Source: Bacteroidales bacterium
GTDB taxonomy: Bacteria > Bacteroidota > Bacteroidia > Bacteroidales > F082
Length of the DNA: 36,090 nt
Assembly (NCBI GenBank): GCA_024709145.1
Contig: JANJXG010000132.1
Span: forward strand, 1-36,090
Reading direction: 5' to 3'
Made by a program: the position numbers and the translations under genes. Below, in pieces: positions 12,484 through 28,316 of this stretch (position 1 is the stretch's first letter; each line of letters starts with the position of its first letter). A model generated the notes under the pieces. It saw only the letters and a list, made by a program, of their open reading frames with translations. It was not told where the DNA came from and searched no databases.

Positions 12484-13941
12484 ATGCAAACCGAAACGAT
12501 TCAACTACTTCTGGAATCTCTTTTTAGCGAAAAACTTGGCTTTGAAGTCTTGCGCTTTCAGCCAATCAAAAACAGCGGGTCAGAACGAATGTATTTTCGT
12601 GTTTTTACTCAAAACAATTCTTTTATTGCTTCTTACAACAACAACTTAGCCGAAAACCGGGCTTTTTTTCACATTGCTGATGCTTTTGATCAGGCAGGTA
12701 TTCCCAAACCACAGTTACTTGCAGTAAGTAATTGTGAAAAAGCCTGCATACAGGAAGATTTGGGCGACGAAAGCTTATTCGATCGCTTGATGCATCACCG
12801 ACAAGATGAAGATTTCACTGAAATTATCAGACCCTTGTTTCATCAGGCTCTCGATATCCTGGGTGAATTGCAGATTGAAGTGGATAAAACAGTTGATTAC
12901 GGGCTATGCTGGCCAACTGGATTCTTTGATCAACGAAGTATTCTGTCCGACCTTCATTACTTTTACTACTACTTTGTTAAACAACAGCCAAACCTTGAAA
13001 TAAATGAATACAAGTTACTTGCAGAACTTGAGGCATTATCTTTGCAGATTGCCACTATTCCCCTGAATTGTTTCATTTACCGGGATTTTCAGTCAAGAAA
13101 TCTGATGATAAAAAACAATCAGTTGTATTGTATTGATTTTCAGGGAGGCAGAAAAGGAAATTTTGCATATGATGTAGTTTCATTGCTTTACCAGGTTAAA
13201 GCAGGATTGCCCGGCGGATTCAAAGAAGAAATGATTGACTATTATTCACGAAAGTTAAATTCCAAAGGATTCAACACCAGCGAATTCCTCCAACATCTTT
13301 CAGCGTTTATTTATCTCCGGTTGTTTCAGGTACTAGGTGCTTACGGTTTCAGGGGTATCATTCAAAGGAAGCAACATTTTCTCGAAAGCATCCCTTTCGC
13401 ACTGCGGCAATTAGAAACCCACCTGCAAGATAACCCCTTACCTTTGGAACTTCCCGCATTGGAAAACTTGCTTCGGCAACTTGTCAGAAACAATAAATAC
13501 CAATCCGGCAAAAGAATTCCGGCAGAAAAGAAACTCAAAATTAAGATCAGAAGTTTTTCATATATTAGAGGTGGAATTCCCGTTGATGGATCAGGCAATG
13601 GCGGCGGTTTTGTATTTGATTGCCGGATTTTACCAAATCCGGGAAGGGAAGAAAAATTCAGAAATCAAACAGGACTTGATCCGGAAGTTATTGACTATCT
13701 CAAGGCGAAACCTGAAGTAACTGAGTTTCTGAGCAATGTTCAATTAATTATTAAACAAGGTGTTGAAAATTACTTGCATCGGGGTTTCACCGATTTGATG
13801 GTCAGTTTTGGTTGCACCGGTGGCCAGCATCGATCGGTTTATTGTGCCTCGATGCTCACTGAATGGCTCAAAAGCAACTTTGACGAACTCAAAATCGAAA
13901 CCGAACACATTGAGCAAGGAATAACATTCTACCATGGCTAA
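12484..13941 (+). CDS. AmgK-like amino-sugar kinase fused to RapZ C-terminal domain
   Basis: A protein of 485 residues with two domains. Residues 1 to about 330 are an aminoglycoside-phosphotransferase-type kinase: catalytic loop FIYRDFQSRNLMIKNN (D201, with the usual His replaced by Tyr) and metal-binding CIDFQGGRKG (D218) with AYDVVSLLYQ. These match AmgK, which phosphorylates MurNAc/GlcNAc at the anomeric position in cell-wall recycling. Residues about 345-485 are a RapZ C-terminal domain: FVFDCRILPNPGR, TGLD, and SFGCTGGQHRSVY (443-452). In Escherichia coli RapZ this domain binds GlcN6P. The RapZ N-terminal ATPase is absent. The next recognisable gene is MurU-like, which supports the AmgK call. 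I infer a kinase gated by an amino-sugar phosphate. Confidence 0.85.
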   Translation: MQTETIQLLLESLFSEKLGFEVLRFQPIKNSGSERMYFRVFTQNNSFIASYNNNLAENRAFFHIADAFDQAGIPKPQLLAVSNCEKACIQEDLGDESLFDRLMHHRQDEDFTEIIRPLFHQALDILGELQIEVDKTVDYGLCWPTGFFDQRSILSDLHYFYYYFVKQQPNLEINEYKLLAELEALSLQIATIPLNCFIYRDFQSRNLMIKNNQLYCIDFQGGRKGNFAYDVVSLLYQVKAGLPGGFKEEMIDYYSRKLNSKGFNTSEFLQHLSAFIYLRLFQVLGAYGFRGIIQRKQHFLESIPFALRQLETHLQDNPLPLELPALENLLRQLVRNNKYQSGKRIPAEKKLKIKIRSFSYIRGGIPVDGSGNGGGFVFDCRILPNPGREEKFRNQTGLDPEVIDYLKAKPEVTEFLSNVQLIIKQGVENYLHRGFTDLMVSFGCTGGQHRSVYCASMLTEWLKSNFDELKIETEHIEQGITFYHG

Positions 13942-14065
13942 AAAACTTTGCAAGAGTGAGAACGAAAAACAGTCGGGCAAAAAAAAATCAGCCCGGTTCA
14001 GCTGCAAAAAATGCGGATTGTCAGCAAAGCATGAAGATGAACTTTGTAAACCGGAGAAGCTATAG
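13934..14065 (+). CDS. 43-residue Cys-rich putative zinc-binding protein
   Basis: A short frame of 43 residues. It begins eight bases before the end of the kinase-RapZ gene (shared in another frame) and stops three bases before the MurU-like ATG. It is very basic at the start (MAKKLCKSENEKQSGKKK) and then reads FSCKKCGLSAKHEDELCKP. C24, C27, H33 and C38, possibly with C6, could bind one zinc. The KKCG...LCKP pattern resembles small stand-alone zinc-ribbon proteins I have seen in other bacteria, and the exact fit between two genes argues for a real gene. The function is unknown; nucleic-acid or protein binding is only a guess. Confidence 0.7.
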   Translation: MAKKLCKSENEKQSGKKKSARFSCKKCGLSAKHEDELCKPEKL

Positions 14066-14068
14066 CTA

Positions 14069-14815
14069 ATGAATACCAGCAATGAGGCCTGCGCCATGAT
14101 TTTAGCTGCCGGTCTGGGAACCCGACTCGGTGACATGACAAAAACCAAACCTAAGGCTTTGGTTGAAATCAATGGACGTCCCCTGATTGAAATTCTTCTG
14201 CAAAGCCTTAAATTCCATGGCTTTACCTCAGTTATCGTCAATACACATCATTTCGCCAATCAGCTGACAGACTATTTGAAAGCACACACATTTGGATTAA
14301 AGATATATATTTCTGATGAGCGTAACTGTTTGATGGATACTGGAGGCGCGATTGTGCAGGCAAATCGGTTTTTTTCTACGGGGTCATCGGTTCTTGTTCA
14401 CAATGTTGACATCATCAGCAACATAGATTTGAAGCATTTATATGATAATTTTCACCTTTCTGACGACGATGCCTGGTTAGTCACGCAAGACAGAATAAGT
14501 GCCCGAAAAATTCTTTCTGACTTTAACGGTCTTTTGTGCGGATGGACCAACAAAAGCACGAATGAATTTAAATGGGTTAACAACTCCAAAAAAGAAAAGT
14601 ATAATGAACTGGCTTTTAGCGGTATACATGTGTTTAAGAAAGAACTGTTTGATGGCCTGCCATTAAAGCCATCCAGTGTAATTGATCTTTACATCAAGCT
14701 TGCAGAAACAAAAAAAATCAAATGCCAGACTGCACCTTGCAGCTATTGGTTCGATCTTGGAAAAGTGAATGATCTGCCACGAATTGAAGAACATTTGAAA
14801 ACTATCAGATTATGA
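14069..14815 (+). CDS. MurU-like sugar-1-phosphate nucleotidyltransferase
   Basis: A protein of 248 residues with the nucleotidyltransferase fold. AMILAAGLGTRLGDMTKTKPKALVEINGRPLIE (about 9-41) binds the nucleotide, VNTHH is at about 58-62, the metal-binding HNVDIIS is at about 111, and ELAFSGIHVF and the WFDLGKVNDL end are typical of short pyrophosphorylases. Beside an AmgK-like kinase the likely role is MurU: joining MurNAc-1-phosphate to UTP to give UDP-MurNAc, which bypasses de novo synthesis. The general class (NDP-sugar pyrophosphorylase) is certain; the sugar is inferred from context. Its last four bases (ATGA) overlap the start of the AddB-like gene. Confidence 0.85.
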   Translation: MNTSNEACAMILAAGLGTRLGDMTKTKPKALVEINGRPLIEILLQSLKFHGFTSVIVNTHHFANQLTDYLKAHTFGLKIYISDERNCLMDTGGAIVQANRFFSTGSSVLVHNVDIISNIDLKHLYDNFHLSDDDAWLVTQDRISARKILSDFNGLLCGWTNKSTNEFKWVNNSKKEKYNELAFSGIHVFKKELFDGLPLKPSSVIDLYIKLAETKKIKCQTAPCSYWFDLGKVNDLPRIEEHLKTIRL

Positions 14816-17723: not shown

Positions 17724-19751
17724 ATGAATCAACAACCAAAATTCAATATCCTGATTGTGGACGACCGTCCTGAAAATCTGCTGACCCTTGAGGGGATTCT
17801 TGAAAATGATGAACTCAACATTTTGAAGGCTCATTCTGGCAATGAGGCGTTAAGCATCATGCTTGAACACAATGTGGCTCTGGTTCTGATGGATGTTCAA
17901 ATGCCAGGAATGGACGGTTTTGAAGTGGCCGAAATCATGCGAAGTACCGAAAGGACAAAATATATTCCCATCATTTTTGTGACTGCAATCAGCAAACAGC
18001 GACAACATATTTTTAAAGGTTATGAATCTGGTGCTGTAGATTATTTATACAAACCACTTGATTTAGAAATACTTCAAAGCAAAATTAAGGCATTTATTGA
18101 TTTTTTTCAACATAAGAACAAATTAGAAGAAACCACTCGTAAGCTTGAAAAAACCATTAACGAACTGAATCAGTCCCGCATCATTGCCGAAGAAGCAACC
18201 ATGGCAAAAAGTGCTTTTCTTGCCACAATGAGCCATGAAATCAGAACACCCCTTAATGGCATTATCGGATTGGCTGATCTGGGCCTGATGGATGACAGCA
18301 TGAGCACAACACAGCGTGAAAGGCTCCTCGATATTAAAACTTCAGGAGAATCTCTGCTTGAGATTATCAACGAAATCCTGGATATTTCCAAAATAGAAGC
18401 TGATAAACTCGAACTCGAAGAAATAGAGTTCAGCATCAGAGAGGTGATTGAAAAAATTATAAACCTTCTGTCAGTGAAAGTGTTTCAGGAAAAACTTGAG
18501 TTCGTCTGTGAGATATCACCCGATCTTCCGGATATCTTAATCGGTGATCCTTTGCGAATCAGGCAAATATTAATCAATTTGCTCAGCAACGCTATCAAAT
18601 TTACTGAAGAAGGCACCGTTGGGATTCATGTAAAAATGCTTGACCACATTGAGGAACAAATCAGCATTGAATTTTCTGTCGAAGATACCGGGATTGGGAT
18701 CCCTAAAGACAAAATAAACCGGCTCTTTCAATCCTATCAACAAGTTGATACTTCAACAACCCGCACCCATGGAGGAACAGGTCTTGGTTTAACCATTTCA
18801 CAAAAGCTAGTGAATCTGATGGGCGGAGTCATCAAAGTTGAAAGCAACCTAGGAGAAGGAAGTAAATTTTACTTCCGGCTCAATATGATGACCGGTGACC
18901 AACGAGAGTCCCCCTGGGAGCTCACTTTGAACAAACCCAACAATGAATACAATTTGCTTATTATTGATGATCATCAGAAATCGACACACATAATTTCCGA
19001 GATGTTGCATAAATGGGGCATAAAACACTCATTTACATATGATTGCCCTTCATGTTTCAACCTCCTTGAAAAAGAAAATTTTGATTTGATCCTGATTGAT
19101 TATTATCTGACTTCGATGAATGGATTTGAAGTTGCCGAAAAGATTAAGTCTAAATTTAAACCAGGTCAACAACCAGAGATTGTGCTCCTGTCACCCAGTA
19201 AAGCCAGCATCGAAATTTTGAAAGTTAAAAATACTGGTATGCAGGAATTTCTTACAAAACCTCTGCTACAATCTAACCTGAAAAAGCTGCTAATCAATAA
19301 ATTTGGAAAAAAAGACAAGGGTAAAGAAATACCTGCAGAACCAAAGGGAACTGAAGACGCTGGCGGACGCAAATTGAACATCCTCGTTGCTGAAGATCAA
19401 ATTATTAATCGAAAAATCGTTATTCAGCTACTTGAGAAGAAAGGATGGATTGTAAAAGCTGTCGAAAACGGCAAAATTGCATTTGAGGTTGCAACAACAC
19501 AACGCTTTGATTTGATTTTAATGGACGTTCAAATGCCTGAAATGGATGGTTTTGACGCCACCCGAAACATAAGAATTGCAGAAAAAGATAAGTCTTATCA
19601 CACCCCCATCGTGGCCATGACAGCCCATGCAATGATTGGAGACCGTGAAAAATGTTTGGCTGCCGGTATGGATTACTACATCACAAAACCTGTTAATCCT
19701 GCTGAACTTTATGAGACAATTGAAAAATTTACTTTATTGCAGCAAAAGTAA
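17724..19751 (+). CDS. Soluble hybrid histidine kinase (REC-HisKA-HATPase-REC-REC)
   Basis: A protein of 675 residues with no membrane segment or signal peptide. Domain order: receiver with D57 (VLMDVQMPGMDG) and K110; short coiled coil (about 132-165); HisKA with phospho-accepting H171 (MSHEIRTPLNG); HATPase with the N box NLLSNAIKF, DTGIGIP and GGTGLGL; a second receiver with D459 (LILIDYYLTSMNG); and a third with D601 (LILMDVQMPEMDG) and K (YITKPV). The N-terminal receiver suggests it takes phosphate from another kinase rather than sensing a ligand itself. The terminal receivers would pass phosphate to an Hpt protein, and one is encoded at 31187. There is no DNA-binding output domain. It precedes the membrane-bound kinase by 165 bases with its own promoter. 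Confidence 0.93.
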   Translation: MNQQPKFNILIVDDRPENLLTLEGILENDELNILKAHSGNEALSIMLEHNVALVLMDVQMPGMDGFEVAEIMRSTERTKYIPIIFVTAISKQRQHIFKGYESGAVDYLYKPLDLEILQSKIKAFIDFFQHKNKLEETTRKLEKTINELNQSRIIAEEATMAKSAFLATMSHEIRTPLNGIIGLADLGLMDDSMSTTQRERLLDIKTSGESLLEIINEILDISKIEADKLELEEIEFSIREVIEKIINLLSVKVFQEKLEFVCEISPDLPDILIGDPLRIRQILINLLSNAIKFTEEGTVGIHVKMLDHIEEQISIEFSVEDTGIGIPKDKINRLFQSYQQVDTSTTRTHGGTGLGLTISQKLVNLMGGVIKVESNLGEGSKFYFRLNMMTGDQRESPWELTLNKPNNEYNLLIIDDHQKSTHIISEMLHKWGIKHSFTYDCPSCFNLLEKENFDLILIDYYLTSMNGFEVAEKIKSKFKPGQQPEIVLLSPSKASIEILKVKNTGMQEFLTKPLLQSNLKKLLINKFGKKDKGKEIPAEPKGTEDAGGRKLNILVAEDQIINRKIVIQLLEKKGWIVKAVENGKIAFEVATTQRFDLILMDVQMPEMDGFDATRNIRIAEKDKSYHTPIVAMTAHAMIGDREKCLAAGMDYYITKPVNPAELYETIEKFTLLQQK

Positions 19752-19823
19752 GTTCGTTGAGACCATAAAAGCCGTATGACTGAAAAAAACCATCCTGTAC
19801 CCCGCTATTTCTTGTTTCAAAGT

Positions 19824-19831
19824 TATATTTG
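19824..19831 (+). promoter_or_regulatory. Putative -7 element for the kinase-cheR-cheB operon
   Basis: TATATTTG matches TAnnTTTG, 85 bases before the ATG at 19917. No clear -33 TTTG is seen. The gap 19752-19916 also holds no obvious terminator, so some readthrough from the first kinase is possible. Confidence 0.4.
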
Positions 19832-19916
19832 CCGCCAATTACGTGGGTAAGATGTTCATTTAACAACATTAACGAACTGTGGAGGTTTAACATTTTCAAT
19901 AACCTGAATTTTTTAC

Positions 19917-22900
19917 ATGGAAAATCTGGACTACAATAAAGCCACAACCTGGGAAAAATTAAAATTCTCATTCAGGTCGTGGCGTTACATCGGTGTCGGC
20001 AAATCACTGTTAATCTGGTTCCTGACCATTTCTATCGTACCATTGGCCAGCATCAGTTTTATCAACTTTCTGAATGCTTACCATGGCTTAACAATTGTTG
20101 CGGAGAAATCGCTTCAAACAACCTCGCAACTTCGTGAAGAATATATCAACACATTTTTTAATGAAATAACCGATTTTCTTAAGTTTAACAGCAGCCAAAA
20201 GGCAGATGTAAATTTCATTAAAGATTTAACCAAAGGTCTTGAAAACAATGGTGGAGATTTTACCAAATTTTATAAATCACCTGAATATCAAAGCTTAACG
20301 GCTGAGCATAAAGATGAATACAAAAACCTTACCGACCGACAGGGCTTCTATGATATCTATTACATAGGCCGTGACGGAACGATACTTTTCAGTCTGAAAC
20401 AAGAAAGCGATCTGGGTTCAAACCTTTTAACAGGGAATCTGAAACTTACCAGATTTGCTGCTACCGTGCGTGAAGTGCTGGACCATGAGAAAATTCGTTT
20501 TTCCGATCTGGAGTTTTATGAGCCTTCGTATAACAAACTGACCGGCTTTTTTGCAATCTCGGTTAAAGATGAATCAGGACAGGTGATTGGTGTCATTGCC
20601 TTGCAGATTACAATGGAACGCATCAATCAGATTATTAGTCAGGAAGCAGGTTATGGTGAAACAGGACAAGCATACATTGTTGCAGATGACCGATTGCTCC
20701 GTTCGGCGTTGCGGTTCAAAGGTAATCATGAGATCTTAACAAAAGAAGTTGATAATCAAAAGGTTAAAGATTGGTTATTTAGCCAGCAAAATAAATCGAA
20801 TTTGGCGATACTCGAAGAAAAGGAACTCGATCGCGAAAAAGTTTCTACTTACGACAGTGACCTGGAAGGTAAATATGTGCTTGGAATTTACCGACACCTC
20901 GACCTGCTCGAAAAACTTGGTGTTAGGTGGGCTTTAATTGAAGAAATTGAGCACAGTGAAGCTTTTGCCTATGCCAGAAAGCTTTCCGATATTGTAAAAA
21001 TCACCTTTATTATAACTATAATCCTTGTTTTTTTTATCTCTATTCTCGTCACACGGTGGTTCGTAAACCCTATCAAGCAATTATCTTCATGGGCAAAGGA
21101 AGTTGCTGAAGGGCAGCTTGATAACAAATATATAAAAGCCCCTTCCAATGAAATTGGGGAAATGGTTGGAACTTTTAACCGACTTGTTAATGCTTTACAA
21201 AAATACGCCAATGTTGCGCGGTTGATGGCAATTGGTGATTACAGCGAAAAGGTTGAAATCAGAAGTGAGAAAGATGTTTTGGGCACTTCGATGAACGAAA
21301 TGGTTGGAAGTTTCAGGCAGGTTGTTTCGCAAGCTAACAGGATAGCAGCCGGCGATTACAGTGTTAATGTAGTTCCACGCAGCGAAAAAGACACCTTAAA
21401 TATTGCCTTGTTCGACATGACCCGGACACTTCAAGCCAATGCCATTGCCAACGCCAACCAGGATTGGCTTAAAACCGGCATCAATCTGTTGGATACTGAG
21501 TTAAGCGGTGTTTCATCAGTAGATATATTGGTTGAGAAGGTAATCACTTTTCTTGGTAGTTACACAGGAGCAGTTGCAGGCTTCGTTTATGTAACCGATG
21601 ACCGGGAACGTAGCCTCGAGCTTAGGTCTACATTTGGTGCTCCGCTTTTCAACCCCTCCCAACCTGTAAAAATCACAGAAGGAGATGGAATAATCGGGCA
21701 GGTAGCCAAAGATCGTAAAATCACTTATATTGAGTCAGACGATCAGAACCTGAAGATCCATTTGGGTAATCATACCCTCGAAGTCAAAGATTGTATCGTT
21801 TTTCCCTTAATTCACGAAGGACAGCTCACAGGAGTCATCGAACTGCTTTCAACAAGCGGATTCAACGAGTTAAAAAAGAGTTTTCTCGAAATGGCATCAG
21901 TAAACATTGCTATTGCCATCCGCACCGCCAAGGCTACAGAAACAGTTCGTGAACTGCTGCGTCAGACGCAGGAACAAGCCAACGAGTTAGCTGTACAGCA
22001 AGAAGAACTCAGGCAAGCAAATGAAGAGCTTCAGGAACAAACAGCAGCGCTGCGGGTTTCAGAAGAGAATCTTCAGGCACAGCAAGAAGAACTTAAAGTA
22101 ACCAATGAAGAACTTGAAGAACGAACAAAAGCACTTGAGGCACAAAGAGATGCAATAAGAGAAAAAAACATCGAACTCGAAGCAGCCCGCAAAGAAATCG
22201 AAACGAAAGCACAGGACATTGAAATGGCTTCGAAATACAAATCGGAGTTTTTGGCTAATATGTCGCATGAGCTCCGAACTCCGCTTAACAGCATTTTGGT
22301 CCTCTCACAGCTTTTGGCTGAAAATAAAAAGCAACATCTTGATTTAAAGGAACTTGAATATGCCCGAACCATCAATAGCTCAGGTTCGGATTTACTTGAG
22401 TTGATCAATGAAATACTTGATCTGAGTAAAGTGGAATCAGGAAAAATTGATCTCTTTGTTGAACCTGTTTACCTTGATGATATTGCTGCTTTCGTAAAAA
22501 AATCGTTTGGACCGCTTGCCGAAAAGAAAGGTTTGGAATTATTTATTCATATCAGCAAGAACCTTCCGGAGACAATTAAAACCGATAGTCAGCGTGTATT
22601 TCAGATTCTTAAAAATCTTTTCTCCAACGCGCTGAAATTCACCCATAAAGGAAGTGTTACCCTCAGCATATACAAGCCTAAACAGGTCAATCAGGATCAT
22701 ACTGAAAAAAAGTGGGTTGCTTTATCAGTAAAAGACACAGGTATCGGTATAGCTCCCGGAAAACTTGAACTCATTTTCAATGCCTTTACACAGGCTGACG
22801 GTACAACCAGCAGAAAATATGGAGGCACGGGTCTAGGGCTAAGTATTTCAAAAGCATTTACGGAACTTCTTGGAGGATCGATTGAAGTGGAAAGCATTGA

Positions 22901-24275
22901 AGGTGAAGGAACTACCTTTACTTTATACCTGCCATTGGAAGGTAATCAATCCTACGGTGAGTCCGAAAAAATAGATAGCAATACCCCTAAGACAATTCAA
23001 GCTCCCCAAAAACAGGAAACTGGGATTACAGTGCAAACTGAATCACCCCCTGCTCCCCTACCCTTCGATGAAAGCCGCGATGACAGGCATCTACTCAACG
23101 AAGGTGACAAAGTATTGCTGGTTATTGAAGACGACCCGAGTTTTGCTGGTTTGATAAAAGATATGGCCAACGAGCATCATTTCAAGTGTTTAATTGCTCA
23201 TGACGGAGAGGCAGGATTGCATTATGCTGATTTCTACCTCCCTAGTGCCATAATACTCGACATTGGTTTGCCTGGCATCGATGGTTATGAAGTAATGGAC
23301 AGATTGAAAAAAAATAGCCGTACACGACACATTCCAGTGCATTTTGTCTCGGCAGCTGACCGCACACTTGATACCCTAAAGCAAGGTGCGATCGGTTATT
23401 TGCGCAAACCTGTCACCAAAGAAACACTCGAATCTGCTCTCGATAGAATCGAATTGGCTGTTGCCAGCCATTCACGCAAGCTTCTCATCGTTGAAGATGA
23501 TGAAATTACGCGAAAAAGCATCACAAACCTGATGTCAGCCGAGGATGTGATCATCAAAGCAGTGAGCTCAGGTGAAGCTGCCTGGGAGGTGTTAAAAAAT
23601 GAACCGTTCGATTGCCTGATTCTCGACCTTGGTTTACAAGGAATGAGTGGATTTGAGCTCCTCGAAAACATTAAAAAAGATGATGCGATCAAGCTACTTC
23701 CAGTCATTGTCTATACAGCTCACGAAATGAGTCAGGACGAAAATTTGCAACTTCAGCAATATGCTGATAGCATTATACTTAAAGGTGCCAGATCATTCGA
23801 AAGACTCCTGTCGGAGTCCACCTTATTTTTGCATCAGGTTGAGTCGAAGCTACCGGCAAAAAAACAGGAAATGCTGAAGAAAGTTCTTCCCAGAGAAGAT
23901 GTACTTGAGGGCAAAACCCTTCTGATCGTGGATGATGATATGCGCAATGTTTTTGCATTGACAAGCTTCCTTGATCAGTTTAACATGAAACTTATTATTG
24001 CAAAAAACGGAAGAGAAGGCATCGAAAAACTTCAGGCCAATCCTCAAACCGACCTCGTCTTAATGGATATCATGATGCCTGAAATGGATGGCTATGAAGC
24101 CATGCGTGAGATCAGAAAAGATGCACGATTTACAAGGCTGCCAATCATTGCCCTTACCGCCAAAGCAATGAAAGACGACAGAGATAAATGTCTTGCTGCC
24201 GGCGCCAATGAATACCTTACAAAACCTTTTGACACTGGCAAACTACTTTCACTTCTAAGAGTTTGGCTTTACTGA
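19917..24275 (+). CDS. Membrane hybrid histidine kinase with Cache-like sensor, HAMPs, GAF and three receivers
   Basis: A protein of 1452 residues. TM1 lies at about 30-52 and TM2 at about 361-381, enclosing a roughly 300-residue periplasmic region with a Cache-like pattern (FYDIYYIGRDGTILFSL, GFFAISVKDESGQVIGVIALQI). A HAMP (WFVNPIKQLSSWAKEVAEGQ) and a second HAMP-like repeat (two GDYS segments) follow, then a GAF domain (about 535-670) and a long Gln/Glu-rich coiled coil (about 680-775). HisKA has H784 (MSHELRTPLN), with HATPase boxes NLFSNALKF, DTGIGIAP and GGTGLGL. Receivers have D1115, D1237 and D1384; the middle one is divergent (ILKGARS around its Lys). CheR and CheB follow directly, suggesting this receptor-like kinase is the methylated target. 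The ligand is unknown. Confidence 0.93.
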   Translation: MENLDYNKATTWEKLKFSFRSWRYIGVGKSLLIWFLTISIVPLASISFINFLNAYHGLTIVAEKSLQTTSQLREEYINTFFNEITDFLKFNSSQKADVNFIKDLTKGLENNGGDFTKFYKSPEYQSLTAEHKDEYKNLTDRQGFYDIYYIGRDGTILFSLKQESDLGSNLLTGNLKLTRFAATVREVLDHEKIRFSDLEFYEPSYNKLTGFFAISVKDESGQVIGVIALQITMERINQIISQEAGYGETGQAYIVADDRLLRSALRFKGNHEILTKEVDNQKVKDWLFSQQNKSNLAILEEKELDREKVSTYDSDLEGKYVLGIYRHLDLLEKLGVRWALIEEIEHSEAFAYARKLSDIVKITFIITIILVFFISILVTRWFVNPIKQLSSWAKEVAEGQLDNKYIKAPSNEIGEMVGTFNRLVNALQKYANVARLMAIGDYSEKVEIRSEKDVLGTSMNEMVGSFRQVVSQANRIAAGDYSVNVVPRSEKDTLNIALFDMTRTLQANAIANANQDWLKTGINLLDTELSGVSSVDILVEKVITFLGSYTGAVAGFVYVTDDRERSLELRSTFGAPLFNPSQPVKITEGDGIIGQVAKDRKITYIESDDQNLKIHLGNHTLEVKDCIVFPLIHEGQLTGVIELLSTSGFNELKKSFLEMASVNIAIAIRTAKATETVRELLRQTQEQANELAVQQEELRQANEELQEQTAALRVSEENLQAQQEELKVTNEELEERTKALEAQRDAIREKNIELEAARKEIETKAQDIEMASKYKSEFLANMSHELRTPLNSILVLSQLLAENKKQHLDLKELEYARTINSSGSDLLELINEILDLSKVESGKIDLFVEPVYLDDIAAFVKKSFGPLAEKKGLELFIHISKNLPETIKTDSQRVFQILKNLFSNALKFTHKGSVTLSIYKPKQVNQDHTEKKWVALSVKDTGIGIAPGKLELIFNAFTQADGTTSRKYGGTGLGLSISKAFTELLGGSIEVESIEGEGTTFTLYLPLEGNQSYGESEKIDSNTPKTIQAPQKQETGITVQTESPPAPLPFDESRDDRHLLNEGDKVLLVIEDDPSFAGLIKDMANEHHFKCLIAHDGEAGLHYADFYLPSAIILDIGLPGIDGYEVMDRLKKNSRTRHIPVHFVSAADRTLDTLKQGAIGYLRKPVTKETLESALDRIELAVASHSRKLLIVEDDEITRKSITNLMSAEDVIIKAVSSGEAAWEVLKNEPFDCLILDLGLQGMSGFELLENIKKDDAIKLLPVIVYTAHEMSQDENLQLQQYADSIILKGARSFERLLSESTLFLHQVESKLPAKKQEMLKKVLPREDVLEGKTLLIVDDDMRNVFALTSFLDQFNMKLIIAKNGREGIEKLQANPQTDLVLMDIMMPEMDGYEAMREIRKDARFTRLPIIALTAKAMKDDRDKCLAAGANEYLTKPFDTGKLLSLLRVWLY

Positions 24276-24283
24276 AACAAACC

Positions 24284-25153
24284 ATGACTGAAACCGACCC
24301 CCTTCTGCTACAAATTGTTACGCAAGACATTGAAATTGACTTGCTGCTCGAGGGCGTTTTTCGGAAATTTGGATATGATTTCAGAAACTATAACAAAGCC
24401 CATGTGAAAAGAAGGTTGATTCACCGTCAACAGGCGCTTGGCTTGAACAGCATCAGTGAGTTGCAACATAAAGCATTGCATGAGCCTGACTTTATTCAAC
24501 TTATACTTAAAGATTTATCAATTAACGTAACGGAAATGTACCGAGATCCAGGCTTTTATAAATCGGTTAGGAACGAAGTATTTCCAATTTTGAGAACTTA
24601 TCCGTACATCAAAATTTGGCATGCAGGATGTGCGACTGGTGAAGAGGTCTATTCCTTTGCCATTATGCTCAAAGAGGAAGGATTATATAACAGGGCTCAA
24701 ATCTATGCTACTGATTTCAACCCTGCTGTGCTGGAAACAGCGAAAAAAGGCATTTATCCCATCTCCAAGATAAAAGATTTTACCCTTAATTATCAGCAAG
24801 CAGGTGGAAAACAATCGTTCTCTGACTATTATATTGCAAAGTATGATTCAGCAATTCTTGACCCCCACCTCAAACAAAACGTAGTGTTTGCCGAACACAA
24901 CCTTGTTACCGATAGTGTTTTCGCTGAGGTTCACCTGATTATTTGCCGGAACGTTTTGATCTACTTCAACAAAAATCTTCAAAATACCGTTGTCAAACTG
25001 TTTTCAGACAGCCTTGTTAAAGGCGGATTCCTCGGCCTGGGTTCAAAAGAAAATTTGATGTTTACGGAGGTATACAGCCACTTTGAAGTGGTTGATGCAA
25101 AGGAAAAAATTTACAAGAAAAGGATACACTTACCTTCAGTTATCACTCATTGA
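24284..25153 (+). CDS. cheR: CheR-type protein-glutamate methyltransferase
   Basis: A protein of 289 residues from the ATG at 24284, eight bases after the kinase stop; a TTG seven codons earlier is also in frame but would overlap the kinase. The N-terminal helical domain (VKRRLIHRQQALGLNSISEL) precedes the SAM-binding core: LSINVTEMYRDPGFY, the glycine motif IWHAGCATGEEVYSFAIML, IYATDFNPAVLETAKKGIYP, FAEHNLV and LIICRNVLIYFN. CheR uses S-adenosylmethionine to methylate receptor glutamates. The gene is followed with a four-base overlap (TTGA) by cheB. No chemoreceptor, CheA or CheW is nearby, so its substrate is probably not a classical chemoreceptor; the upstream kinase is the natural candidate. 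Confidence 0.93.
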   Translation: MTETDPLLLQIVTQDIEIDLLLEGVFRKFGYDFRNYNKAHVKRRLIHRQQALGLNSISELQHKALHEPDFIQLILKDLSINVTEMYRDPGFYKSVRNEVFPILRTYPYIKIWHAGCATGEEVYSFAIMLKEEGLYNRAQIYATDFNPAVLETAKKGIYPISKIKDFTLNYQQAGGKQSFSDYYIAKYDSAILDPHLKQNVVFAEHNLVTDSVFAEVHLIICRNVLIYFNKNLQNTVVKLFSDSLVKGGFLGLGSKENLMFTEVYSHFEVVDAKEKIYKKRIHLPSVITH

Positions 25154-25755
25154 AGCCTTGCAAAACATACAAAGCCCTCGTTATTGGCACGTCTGCGGGT
25201 GGACTTAAAGCCTTAAAAAGCTTGATTTCAGCATTGCCAACGCAATTTTGCTTACCTGTTATTGTAGTGCAACATCTTAATCCACAATCAGATGGATTTA
25301 TGGCGCAATACCTGAACCAACATTCCCATCTAAATGTTAAAGAAGCTGATTCCGGCGAGCCTATTCGTCCACGCCATGTTTATATCGCTCCAGCTAATTA
25401 TCATTTGTTGATTGAAAAGGATGAAACCTTAAGTTTGAGTGTTTCTGAAAAGGTAAATTATGCCAGACCTTCGATCGACGTACTTTTTGAAAGTGCTGCC
25501 GAAGTCTACCTCGAATGCCTGATCGGACTAGTTCTCACAGGTGCCAATGATGACGGTTCGAAAGGTATTAAAAAAATTCACTCACTTGGAGGATTCACAA
25601 TAGCCCAAAGTCCCGAATCTGCTGAAGTACCTGTAATGCCACAGTCGGCTATCAATACAGGTTGCATAGACATGGTGGTAGATCTGAATGAAATTCCTGA
25701 TTTACTTGGAAGTCTTTGCAACGAAAAAAATCAAGGAAGACATAAGTCAATATAA
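25150..25755 (+). CDS. cheB: Stand-alone CheB methylesterase domain
   Basis: A protein of 201 residues with only the catalytic domain and no receiver. The Ser-His-Asp triad is visible: S15 in VIGTSAGGLKAL, H42 in VVQHLNPQSDGF and D135 in LTGANDDGSKGI. It hydrolyses glutamyl methyl esters (or deamidates glutamine) on receptors. The start is a TTG whose bases overlap the cheR stop; no nearer ATG exists, since the first internal Met lies after the catalytic residues, so the TTG is needed for an intact enzyme. Without a receiver it cannot be switched by phosphorylation in the usual way, so control may come through partner proteins. The 3' end overlaps the opposing nuclease-like gene by 25 bases. 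Confidence 0.92.
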   Translation: MKPCKTYKALVIGTSAGGLKALKSLISALPTQFCLPVIVVQHLNPQSDGFMAQYLNQHSHLNVKEADSGEPIRPRHVYIAPANYHLLIEKDETLSLSVSEKVNYARPSIDVLFESAAEVYLECLIGLVLTGANDDGSKGIKKIHSLGGFTIAQSPESAEVPVMPQSAINTGCIDMVVDLNEIPDLLGSLCNEKNQGRHKSI

Positions 25756-26995: not shown

Positions 26996-27613
26996 ATGGT
27001 ACTAATGTTTGAAAAAAGTAAAAATTTCAGCAATGAGGAGATAATCCGGGGTATTCAAGAGCAAGATTTGGAAATTCTTCGGCATATTTATCAGGAGTAT
27101 TTTCCCTTGGTCGAGAAAATGATTAAAAAATATCATGGCCGCCCCGAAGAAGCCTGGGATTTGTTTCAGGACTCCTTGAATGTTTTGGTCGATCTCATTG
27201 AAAGAAAAAATGGACAATTGCTGATTGAACATACTTTTAAATCGTTCTTTCTGGGAATGTGTAAAAATGTTTGGTTTAAAAAACTTCGTCTGAATCAGAA
27301 GTACCTGGAAGCGAGAAATCAATTCGCTTACGAGTCTATGATCGGAAAAGATTTTGATGAGGAATTTTTTGAAAACAGTTTGTTTCGTATTTATTTGAGG
27401 AATTTGAATAAAATGAAGCCTGATTGCATCAAAATGATCAAAATGTTGACCGAAGAACTTCCGGGCAAAGAAATGGCCGAACTTATGAATTTACAATCTT
27501 CTCAGGCACTATACAATAAAAAACGCGCATGTCTTAAGAAGTTGATAAATTTAATTAATGATGATCCTGAATACAAAAATTTGACAGAACATGGAAAACC
27601 TAAGAAAAATTGA
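26996..27613 (+). CDS. ECF-like sigma-70 family factor
   Basis: A protein of 205 residues (an ATG three codons in is an equally good start). Region 2 is seen at about 15-90 (EEIIRGIQEQDLEILRHIYQEY... EEAWDLFQDSLNVLVDLI), corresponding to the core-binding and -10 recognition helices. Region 4 is at about 135-195 (KPDCIKMIKMLTEELPGKEMAELMNLQSSQALYNKKRACLKKLINLI), a helix-turn-helix for -35 recognition. The layout is that of group 4 (extracytoplasmic function) sigma factors, somewhat divergent. The last 23 bases overlap a TPR membrane protein that looks like its anti-sigma partner. It would direct RNA polymerase to a small stress- or envelope-related regulon; the target promoters are unknown. 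Confidence 0.85.
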   Translation: MVLMFEKSKNFSNEEIIRGIQEQDLEILRHIYQEYFPLVEKMIKKYHGRPEEAWDLFQDSLNVLVDLIERKNGQLLIEHTFKSFFLGMCKNVWFKKLRLNQKYLEARNQFAYESMIGKDFDEEFFENSLFRIYLRNLNKMKPDCIKMIKMLTEELPGKEMAELMNLQSSQALYNKKRACLKKLINLINDDPEYKNLTEHGKPKKN

Positions 27614-28316
27614 AATGTACCTCAAGGGCGAGCTTGAAGAAGATGATCTCTGGGAATTTAAGAGAGCACTTGAAACCGATCCGCAGCTTGCTCATGACTT
27701 GCATGCATACATCGAATTAAAACGGGTGATGGTACAAACCAAAAAAATTGACCTGATGCAAAAACTTGATGACATTCGAAAAAGCGAAACCAAGAAAACA
27801 AGATTTCTGGGCTTACCTGTCTACAGTGCCGTTGCTGCAGCCTTACTCCTGCTTGCGACTATCGGAGGCGGTATCCTGCTCAATTATTCGGGCAATCAAC
27901 ATCAGCAGCTGTTTGAACAATATTATGCAGCCGAAAGTGGTTCGTTTGGTCTGCGATCCGACAATTCAACCATTGAACAAACTGTTGCACAAGGTCTTAA
28001 GTCATACGAAGAAGGCGACTTCAAGAATGCCATTGACGCTTTCAACAAGGCACCCGACAACCTGATGGGAAAGCTATACAGAGGCCTCTCGATGATCGAA
28101 CTTGGCAAGTATGATTTGGCCATCGGGGATTTTGAATCCATCATCAACCACAATGATAATTTGTTTGTAGATCAGGCTCATTGGTATCTTGCACTTACCT
28201 ACTTAAAACTTGATCAGACAGATAAGGCAGAGGAACAGTTTTCGCTTATAGCAGCCGACAGAAGCGTTTATCGTACCAAAGCACAAAAAATCCTCCAGGA
28301 TCTGAAAAACAAATGA
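27591..28316 (+). CDS. Membrane-anchored TPR protein, putative anti-sigma factor
   Basis: A protein of 241 residues. The cytoplasmic N-terminus (1-70; ENLRKIEMYLKGELEEDDLW) resembles the zinc-free anti-sigma domains of Bacteroidetes, where an acidic helical segment of this type holds the sigma factor. One membrane helix follows at about 76-97 (VYSAVAAALLLLATIGGGILL). Residues about 130-240 form TPR-like helices (AQGLKSYEEGDFKNAIDAF, YRGLSMIELGKYDLAIGDFESI, WYLALTYLKLDQTDKAEEQF) that should face the periplasm. Overlap with the sigma gene implies coupled, near-equal synthesis. The anti-sigma role is inferred from position and layout, with no Cys/His zinc motif to confirm it. A terminator follows. 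Confidence 0.75.
   Translation: MENLRKIEMYLKGELEEDDLWEFKRALETDPQLAHDLHAYIELKRVMVQTKKIDLMQKLDDIRKSETKKTRFLGLPVYSAVAAALLLLATIGGGILLNYSGNQHQQLFEQYYAAESGSFGLRSDNSTIEQTVAQGLKSYEEGDFKNAIDAFNKAPDNLMGKLYRGLSMIELGKYDLAIGDFESIINHNDNLFVDQAHWYLALTYLKLDQTDKAEEQFSLIAADRSVYRTKAQKILQDLKNK

Follow-up and report, generated by a model that had tools for sequence, protein, structure and literature searches.

Introduction

In Bacillus cereus, the CheR-like methyltransferase RsbM methylates the hybrid histidine kinase (HK) RsbK in vitro with labelled S-adenosylmethionine, and earlier work by the same authors places the site in the S-helix (PMC4574943). RsbM is a negative regulator that represses sigma-B, and it strengthens the interaction between the receiver domain (REC) and the S-helix (PMC4574943). 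RsbK has a CHASE3-HAMP-GAF-S-helix-HK-REC architecture and shares an operon with the CheR-like enzyme (PMC4574943; PMC12848376); de Been and colleagues found the association of RsbK with CheR (cited in PMC12848376). Here we analyze four genes that encode two hybrid kinases (K1 and K2), a CheR methyltransferase and a CheB methylesterase in a Bacteroidales bacterium. They lie at positions 17,724–25,755 of a 36,090-nucleotide stretch (contig JANJXG010000132.1, assembly GCA_024709145.1), which is referred to as the window.

Two further described arrangements come close to this locus. The cfcABCDE cluster of Pseudomonas putida KT2440 has the hybrid kinase CfcA at its head, a CheB/CheR pair (cfcB/cfcC) and the REC-bearing protein CfcD; a chemotaxis role of the pair is said to be excluded, and His496 of CfcA is required for the activity of CfcR (PMC4951495). 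For the multi-REC kinases of 'Tree 19/Tree 9' in a MacGregor-type analysis, CheR and CheB follow immediately downstream in almost all of the non-Beggiatoaceae listed, apart from the exceptions named (PMC5108060). The covered parts of that paper report this neighborhood and propose no methylation mechanism for it. A first-pass annotation of the window had implied novelty, which is not supported, since both the gene arrangement (PMC5108060) and the methylation of a kinase by a CheR-type enzyme (RsbM/RsbK) are already in print. Among the literature matches listed, whose scope leaves out most subscription papers, we found no study of CheR and CheB acting together on a hybrid kinase.

The window cluster resembles RsbK/RsbM in that a kinase and a CheR-type enzyme share a cluster, and Bacillota loci of that layout contain relatives of the window CheR and share the coil repeats described below. 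In contrast, RsbK has one REC, no CheB and the PP2C regulator RsbY, whereas the window has a three-REC kinase and a cheB, and its eight proteins scanned with Pfam include no PP2C. With cfcABCDE the cluster shares a hybrid kinase, a CheB/CheR pair and a REC-bearing protein. However, CfcA is a CHASE3/GAF kinase (PMC6849547), whereas K2 has a dCache domain; the diguanylate cyclase regulator CfcR depends on CfcA, whereas we found no output-domain regulator in the window cluster; and K1 lies upstream of the kinase and carries two further REC domains. One Beggiatoaceae cluster in PMC5108060 also includes a REC-HK-REC-REC kinase like K1. The CheR and CheB enzyme domains are shared with Che chemosensory pathways, whereas the window CheB has no receiver and the genome has no match for a methyl-accepting chemotaxis protein (MCP) or CheW. 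The system belongs to a kind already described in other bacteria, and the main idea of the first-pass annotation, with a histidine kinase in place of a chemoreceptor as the target of CheR and CheB, is probably right.

Results and discussion

The K2 gene is followed by cheR and cheB

We consider it likely that the four genes form a methylation-tuned hybrid-kinase module, in which CheR and CheB modify the coil between the GAF and HisKA domains of K2. The open reading frames (ORFs) and Pfam matches confirm the gene content first described for the locus, namely a REC-HK-REC-REC kinase, a three-receiver kinase, a coupled cheR and a receiver-less cheB (Table 1). In Pfam, the sensor domain of K2 is a dCache_1, and the H-boxes of the two kinases read SHEIRTPLN and SHELRTPLN. 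A gap of 165 bases separates the end of K1 from the start of K2. The K2 and CheR genes overlap by 13 bases and the CheR and CheB genes by 4 bases; the former overlap holds if the TTG start of cheR is used, and an alternative in-frame ATG lies at 24284.

Aligned with solved structures of their families, CheR retains the motifs AGCATGEE, TDFN and CRNVLIYF, and CheB retains GTSAGG, QHL and GANDDG, which we take to be the catalytic motifs. The AlphaFold2 model of CheR has a mean predicted local distance difference test score (pLDDT) of 93.1, and its best match in the Protein Data Bank is Bacillus subtilis CheR (5ftw), with a template modelling (TM) score of 0.78 by query and 0.90 by target. CheR thus has the fold of its counterpart in MCP chemosensory pathways. 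CheB is a stand-alone CheB_methylest domain, encoded separately from CheR rather than as a CheB-CheR fusion.

Table 1. Positions of the genes and of selected K2 segments within the window
Feature	Position	Strand	Basis
K1, soluble hybrid kinase, REC-HisKA-HATPase-REC-REC, 675 aa	17724..19751	+	ORF, Pfam
K2, hybrid kinase, dCache-HAMP-GAF-coil-HisKA-HATPase-REC-REC-REC, 1452 aa	19917..24275	+	ORF, Pfam
CheR methyltransferase (CheR_N + CheR), 296 aa from TTG	24263..25153	+	ORF, Pfam
CheB methylesterase domain without receiver, 201 aa	25150..25755	+	ORF, Pfam
HisKA of K2, with His784	22239..22442	+	Pfam, alignment
K2 polar coil repeat 1, residues 694-705 (QQEELRQANEEL), candidate methyl-acceptors Glu697 and Glu704	21996..22031	+	column conservation, 95 linked kinases
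K2 polar coil repeat 2, residues 722-733 (QQEELKVTNEEL), candidate methyl-acceptors Glu725 and Glu732	22080..22115	+	column conservation, 95 linked kinases

The genome has no MCP or CheW match

The first-pass annotation had noted that MCP, CheA and CheW are missing, and had proposed a genome search. In the whole genome (148 contigs, 99.35% complete) we found no match to the MCP signalling domain PF00015 and none to PF01584, the domain of CheW and CheA, while each model was positive in 7 of 14 control genomes. The absence noted in the window thus extends to the genome, where the MCP and CheW/CheA components of a chemosensory pathway are both without a match; the MCP and CheA genes elsewhere that the first-pass annotation had named as grounds for refutation did not turn up. 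Because no chemoreceptor competes as a substrate, this genome offers a clean background for studying CheR and CheB.

The Pfam and NCBIfam names of the two enzymes are chemotaxis names, with the NCBIfam scores below cut-off, and one could read them as parts of a cryptic chemotaxis system. Given the empty searches for MCP and CheW domains with models that work in controls, we regard this as very improbable. A hidden chemotaxis system was rejected on this ground, although an assembly gap could in principle hide genes.

Two further CheR-type genes are present in the same genome. On contig C82 (L001, 631–3558), a CheB-CheR fusion frame continues into an EE-rich coil and, by appearance, a PAS domain. 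On contig C71 (L003, 19241–22801), a second CheR has a SAM domain without a CheR_N match. It is flanked on one side by a triple-PAS frame and on the other by a 4HB_MCP-HAMP-GAF frame that, judged by position, continues into a HisKA frame; this contig gave no CheB match. A third match to the CheR model, on contig C45, was partial (112–173 of 195) and, from its translation, was rejected as probably an ordinary SAM methyltransferase.

Linkage of CheR to hybrid kinases is conserved

Using the window CheR as query against 295 genomes of the window's class (E ≤ 1e-20), we found matches in at least 104. Around stand-alone CheRs, 80 class regions were fetched, a part of the matches listed. For these counts, a kinase is a HisKA protein longer than 600 aa in which REC is the final domain but not the initial one, GAF being optional, and it is linked when its gene is at most 8 kb from cheR and shares its strand. 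Such a kinase lies near cheR in 42 regions, 32 of them with cheB and 38 with a REC-HK gene. These loci represent 39 genomes, of which 37 have no CheW; CheW is present in 11 of the 295 class genomes. The two kinase-linked genomes with CheW (G075, G277) also have MCPs over the cut-off, and two others (G100, G133) show sub-threshold MCP matches only.

Named genomes were scanned with 34 aligned CheRs as the pattern, and the loci analyzed are near relatives, the best 80 of at least 584. Seventy of these loci carry a hybrid kinase, distributed over seven phyla: Pseudomonadota (32), Bacillota (18), Bacteroidota (14), Thermodesulfobacteriota (2), Verrucomicrobiota (2), Gemmatimonadota (1) and Myxococcota (1). 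The kinase gene is within 300 bases of cheR in 62 of the 70; cheB is present in 48 and a REC-HK gene in 40. Half of the ten loci without a called kinase are located at contig ends. Kinases with a single REC number 12, all from Bacillota and all without a nearby cheB, and 48 of the 58 kinases with two or three RECs have one nearby. In locus L181 of P. putida (strain 31303) the order is kinase, CheR, CheB, REC-HK, and residues 440–1451 of K2 share 41% identity with its kinase. Because of these synteny counts in relatives, the gene order is not due to chance. The window itself has the cfcABC-type arrangement, a GAF-coil-HisKA-HATPase kinase with two or three C-terminal RECs beside cheR and cheB on one strand, and this gene set is not unusual.

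The REC-HK partner, a role filled by K1 in the window, is thus frequent (38 of 42 class and 40 of 70 named kinase-linked loci) and not universal. The first-pass annotation had suggested that phosphate is passed between the kinases, and the evidence that points to this is the synteny of the partner. The outputs of 14 REC proteins chosen from loci of relatives include GGDEF, GGDEF-EAL, PilZ, HWE kinase and PP2C, none of which was found in the window cluster. This variety suggests a module that serves as a front end for a range of outputs.

The window CheR falls in a supported set of 51 in a quick tree of 141 CheRs, which has several long branches and in which the named hybrid-kinase rows were thinned by half. 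This set comprises 40 hybrid-kinase-linked rows, 9 unclassified rows and 2 labelled as fusions by frame length. Outside it are all 9 MCP-cluster rows, which come from CheW-bearing loci, and all 20 Sia-linked rows. The nearest named CheR among the best 80 relatives is from a Bacteroidales metagenome-assembled genome (L194, 64–65% identity).

A second CheR/CheB set occurs without a HisKA kinase, for example at L072 3202–9791 (G158:C13) and at similar class loci. Half of the 38 kinase-less class regions (19) carry a SpoIIE-type PP2C protein together with DUF6272 or SiaC genes, 18 of the 19 with cheB; DUF6272 is presumably SiaB-like. One of the 19 (L116) belongs to a genome with CheW and MCPs. No Sia gene was found in the 112 kinase-linked loci. 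CheB-REC-PP2C fusions (608 aa) lie beside cheR at L068 7191–9017 (Pfam) and, by similarity, in L069, L073 and L082.

Two polar repeats precede the HisKA domain

We aligned the coils of the 94 of 102 linked kinases that passed a coil-length filter, together with K2 (95 in total), and calculated percentages over rows with a letter. The conserved polar residues form two QQEELxxxNEEL copies between GAF and HisKA, 28 residues, or four heptads, apart. In K2 numbering, the first copy shows Q694 (100%), E697 (97%), N702 (90%) and E704 (92%), and the second Q722 (99%), E725 (96%), N730 (99%) and position 732 (65% E, 25% Q). K2 has Glu at 697, 704, 725 and 732, and so carries the double repeat as defined in this analysis. 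The leucines of the repeats are also conserved, and the spacing of leucine and Glu suggests that the Glu pairs lie outside the coil core.

In a model of the GAF-coil-HK part of K2 (mean pLDDT 83.7, predicted TM score 0.48), both repeats are located on one helix (K2 651–733). Across the second repeat, the model confidence drops from about 84 to 54, and a helix break comes after it.

By comparing K2 with other kinases of its own genome (30 of 64 HisKA loci fetched; 21 frames parsed, including the two from the window), we notice that the coil stands out. Over the 100 residues that precede the H-box, [EQ][EQ] pairs number 14 in K2 and at most 5 in the other 19 frames; heptad-spaced E/Q pairs number 3 in K2 and 0 or 1 in the others, the C82 fusion being outside this count.

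The methylation sites of RsbK are reportedly Glu439 and Glu446. Among 13 Bacillota kinases, six have the aligned counterpart of K2 Glu725 at 383–389 residues before the REC aspartate (365–526 in all 13). We presume that this spacing is near the 827 minus 439 of RsbK; the agreement is weak, as single kinases have other columns at a similar distance.

Alternatively, the substrate of CheR and CheB may lie elsewhere and be modified in trans, with the linkage to K2 reflecting only co-regulation. The C82 fusion with its EE-rich coil would be such a substrate, and the C71 CheR beside a HAMP-GAF frame belongs to the same line of argument. However, cheR overlaps the K2 gene, a hybrid kinase accompanies CheR in most of the named near relatives across phyla, and the heptad-spaced pairs are concentrated in K2. 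We therefore consider a substrate in trans unlikely and K2 the better candidate.

Linked and unlinked kinases

All four candidate sites are E or Q in 88 of 115 linked kinases and in 1 of 25 unlinked kinases, a contrast that is partly circular, as the sites were picked from linked kinases, and that is not independent of phylogeny. The linked set includes neighboring kinases of another type (L040_13, L043_8), and L038 and the window were assigned to it by hand. For the unlinked side, 20 regions were fetched around K2-like kinases away from CheR matches. Some flanks end at contig ends, and in L119, on a contig of 3.5 kb, the linkage status rests on no visible neighbors. Twelve of the 20 regions (L123–L134) encode kinases with a shortened coil and one repeat-like stretch; ten of these twelve kinases have 1886–2287 aa, a stand-alone cheR is absent in the fetched flanks, and a CheB-CheR fusion is nearby in L127. 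These kinases are presumably multi-HAMP. L117–L120 and L122 retain the long coil and differ at one or two of the four sites; L122 has a cheR about 20 kb off on the same contig. The contrast supports a tie between kinase coil and CheR, and is weak as proof. Mann-Whitney and Fisher values for this contrast and for the pair counts take no account of relatedness, and so do not stand as probabilities.

Several points weigh against the proposed modification of K2. At least one of the four sites is missing in 27 of the 115 linked rows. A single coil type accounts for 12 of the 25 unlinked rows (L123–L134), some of the remaining rows do not resemble K2, and the alignment itself may have produced gaps. 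A quick tree of 140 kinases yields 2 independent pairs on supported branches and 6 on all branches, too few for an informative test, and the result is not significant. The kinases of L117, L120, L121 and L122, with no cheR in the fetched flanks, retain many paired E/Q residues. Meanwhile, 38 of the 80 class regions have no kinase of this type near cheR. The described systems also speak to the role of demethylation: RsbM has no cognate methylesterase, and the regulation of RsbK works in this way (PMC4574943), while mutants of cfc genes other than cfcA were not hampered in the scored phenotype, according to unpublished results mentioned in PMC4951495. On these grounds, the adaptation part of the first-pass annotation stays unproven. 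Its other part, in which a histidine kinase takes the place of a chemoreceptor as the target, has indirect support from the missing MCP and CheW matches, the conserved linkage, the tree set, the polar coil and the RsbM/RsbK precedent.

A possible mechanism for methylation of K2

On the basis of these comparisons, we propose how the module may work. The dCache domain, of a family that is extracytoplasmic, would sense a signal and pass it through HAMP and GAF to the long, presumably dimeric coil that ends in HisKA. CheR would esterify coil glutamates, with Glu697 and Glu725 as the best candidates, followed by Glu704 and Glu732, and this methylation would shift the kinase activity of K2. The receiver-less CheB may take the methyl groups off the coil. 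As this CheB has no receiver, its own phosphorylation could not carry feedback, which would instead be set by the coil's state or by a further partner. K1, a probable companion, would take phosphate from K2 on its N-terminal REC. A CheR-binding pentapeptide at the C-terminal end of K2 was also considered and then set aside. The conserved coil repeats point to specific testable residues.

The sign of the effect may vary. In a variant compatible with methylation of K2, CheR would be a methyl-dependent repressor, as proposed for RsbM: the methylated coil would favor REC binding and hold the kinase off, and CheB would be the on-switch. The behavior of RsbM as a negative regulator that tightens the REC/S-helix contact (PMC4574943) fits this variant, as does the distribution of cheB, which is missing near all 12 single-REC kinases of Bacillota and present near most kinases with two or three RECs. 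We hold this variant as tentative, with the odds somewhat against it.

A wider claim is that K2 and its relatives in several phyla are methyl-accepting histidine kinases with a full and reversible CheR/CheB adaptation loop, in which the QQEELxxxNEEL two-repeat cassette is written and erased. This is possible, and we lean only slightly to the doubtful side. If it is true, the loop would provide memory and gain control for a two-component system in organisms without a chemoreceptor. The reversibility made by CheB would turn these kinases into adapting sensors, and the writing and erasing of kinase methyl groups would bring chemotaxis-style sensory adaptation into ordinary two-component signalling across several phyla.

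Other genes in the window

Two further gene pairs of the window were noticed. At 26996–28316, the gene of a sigma-70-like protein (TIGR02985, below cut-off; a weak match to a Bacteroidetes sigma factor) overlaps that of a TPR protein. At 12484–14815, an AmgK-like and RapZ C-terminal-like protein adjoins a MurU-like nucleotidyltransferase, with all of these matches below the NCBIfam cut-offs.

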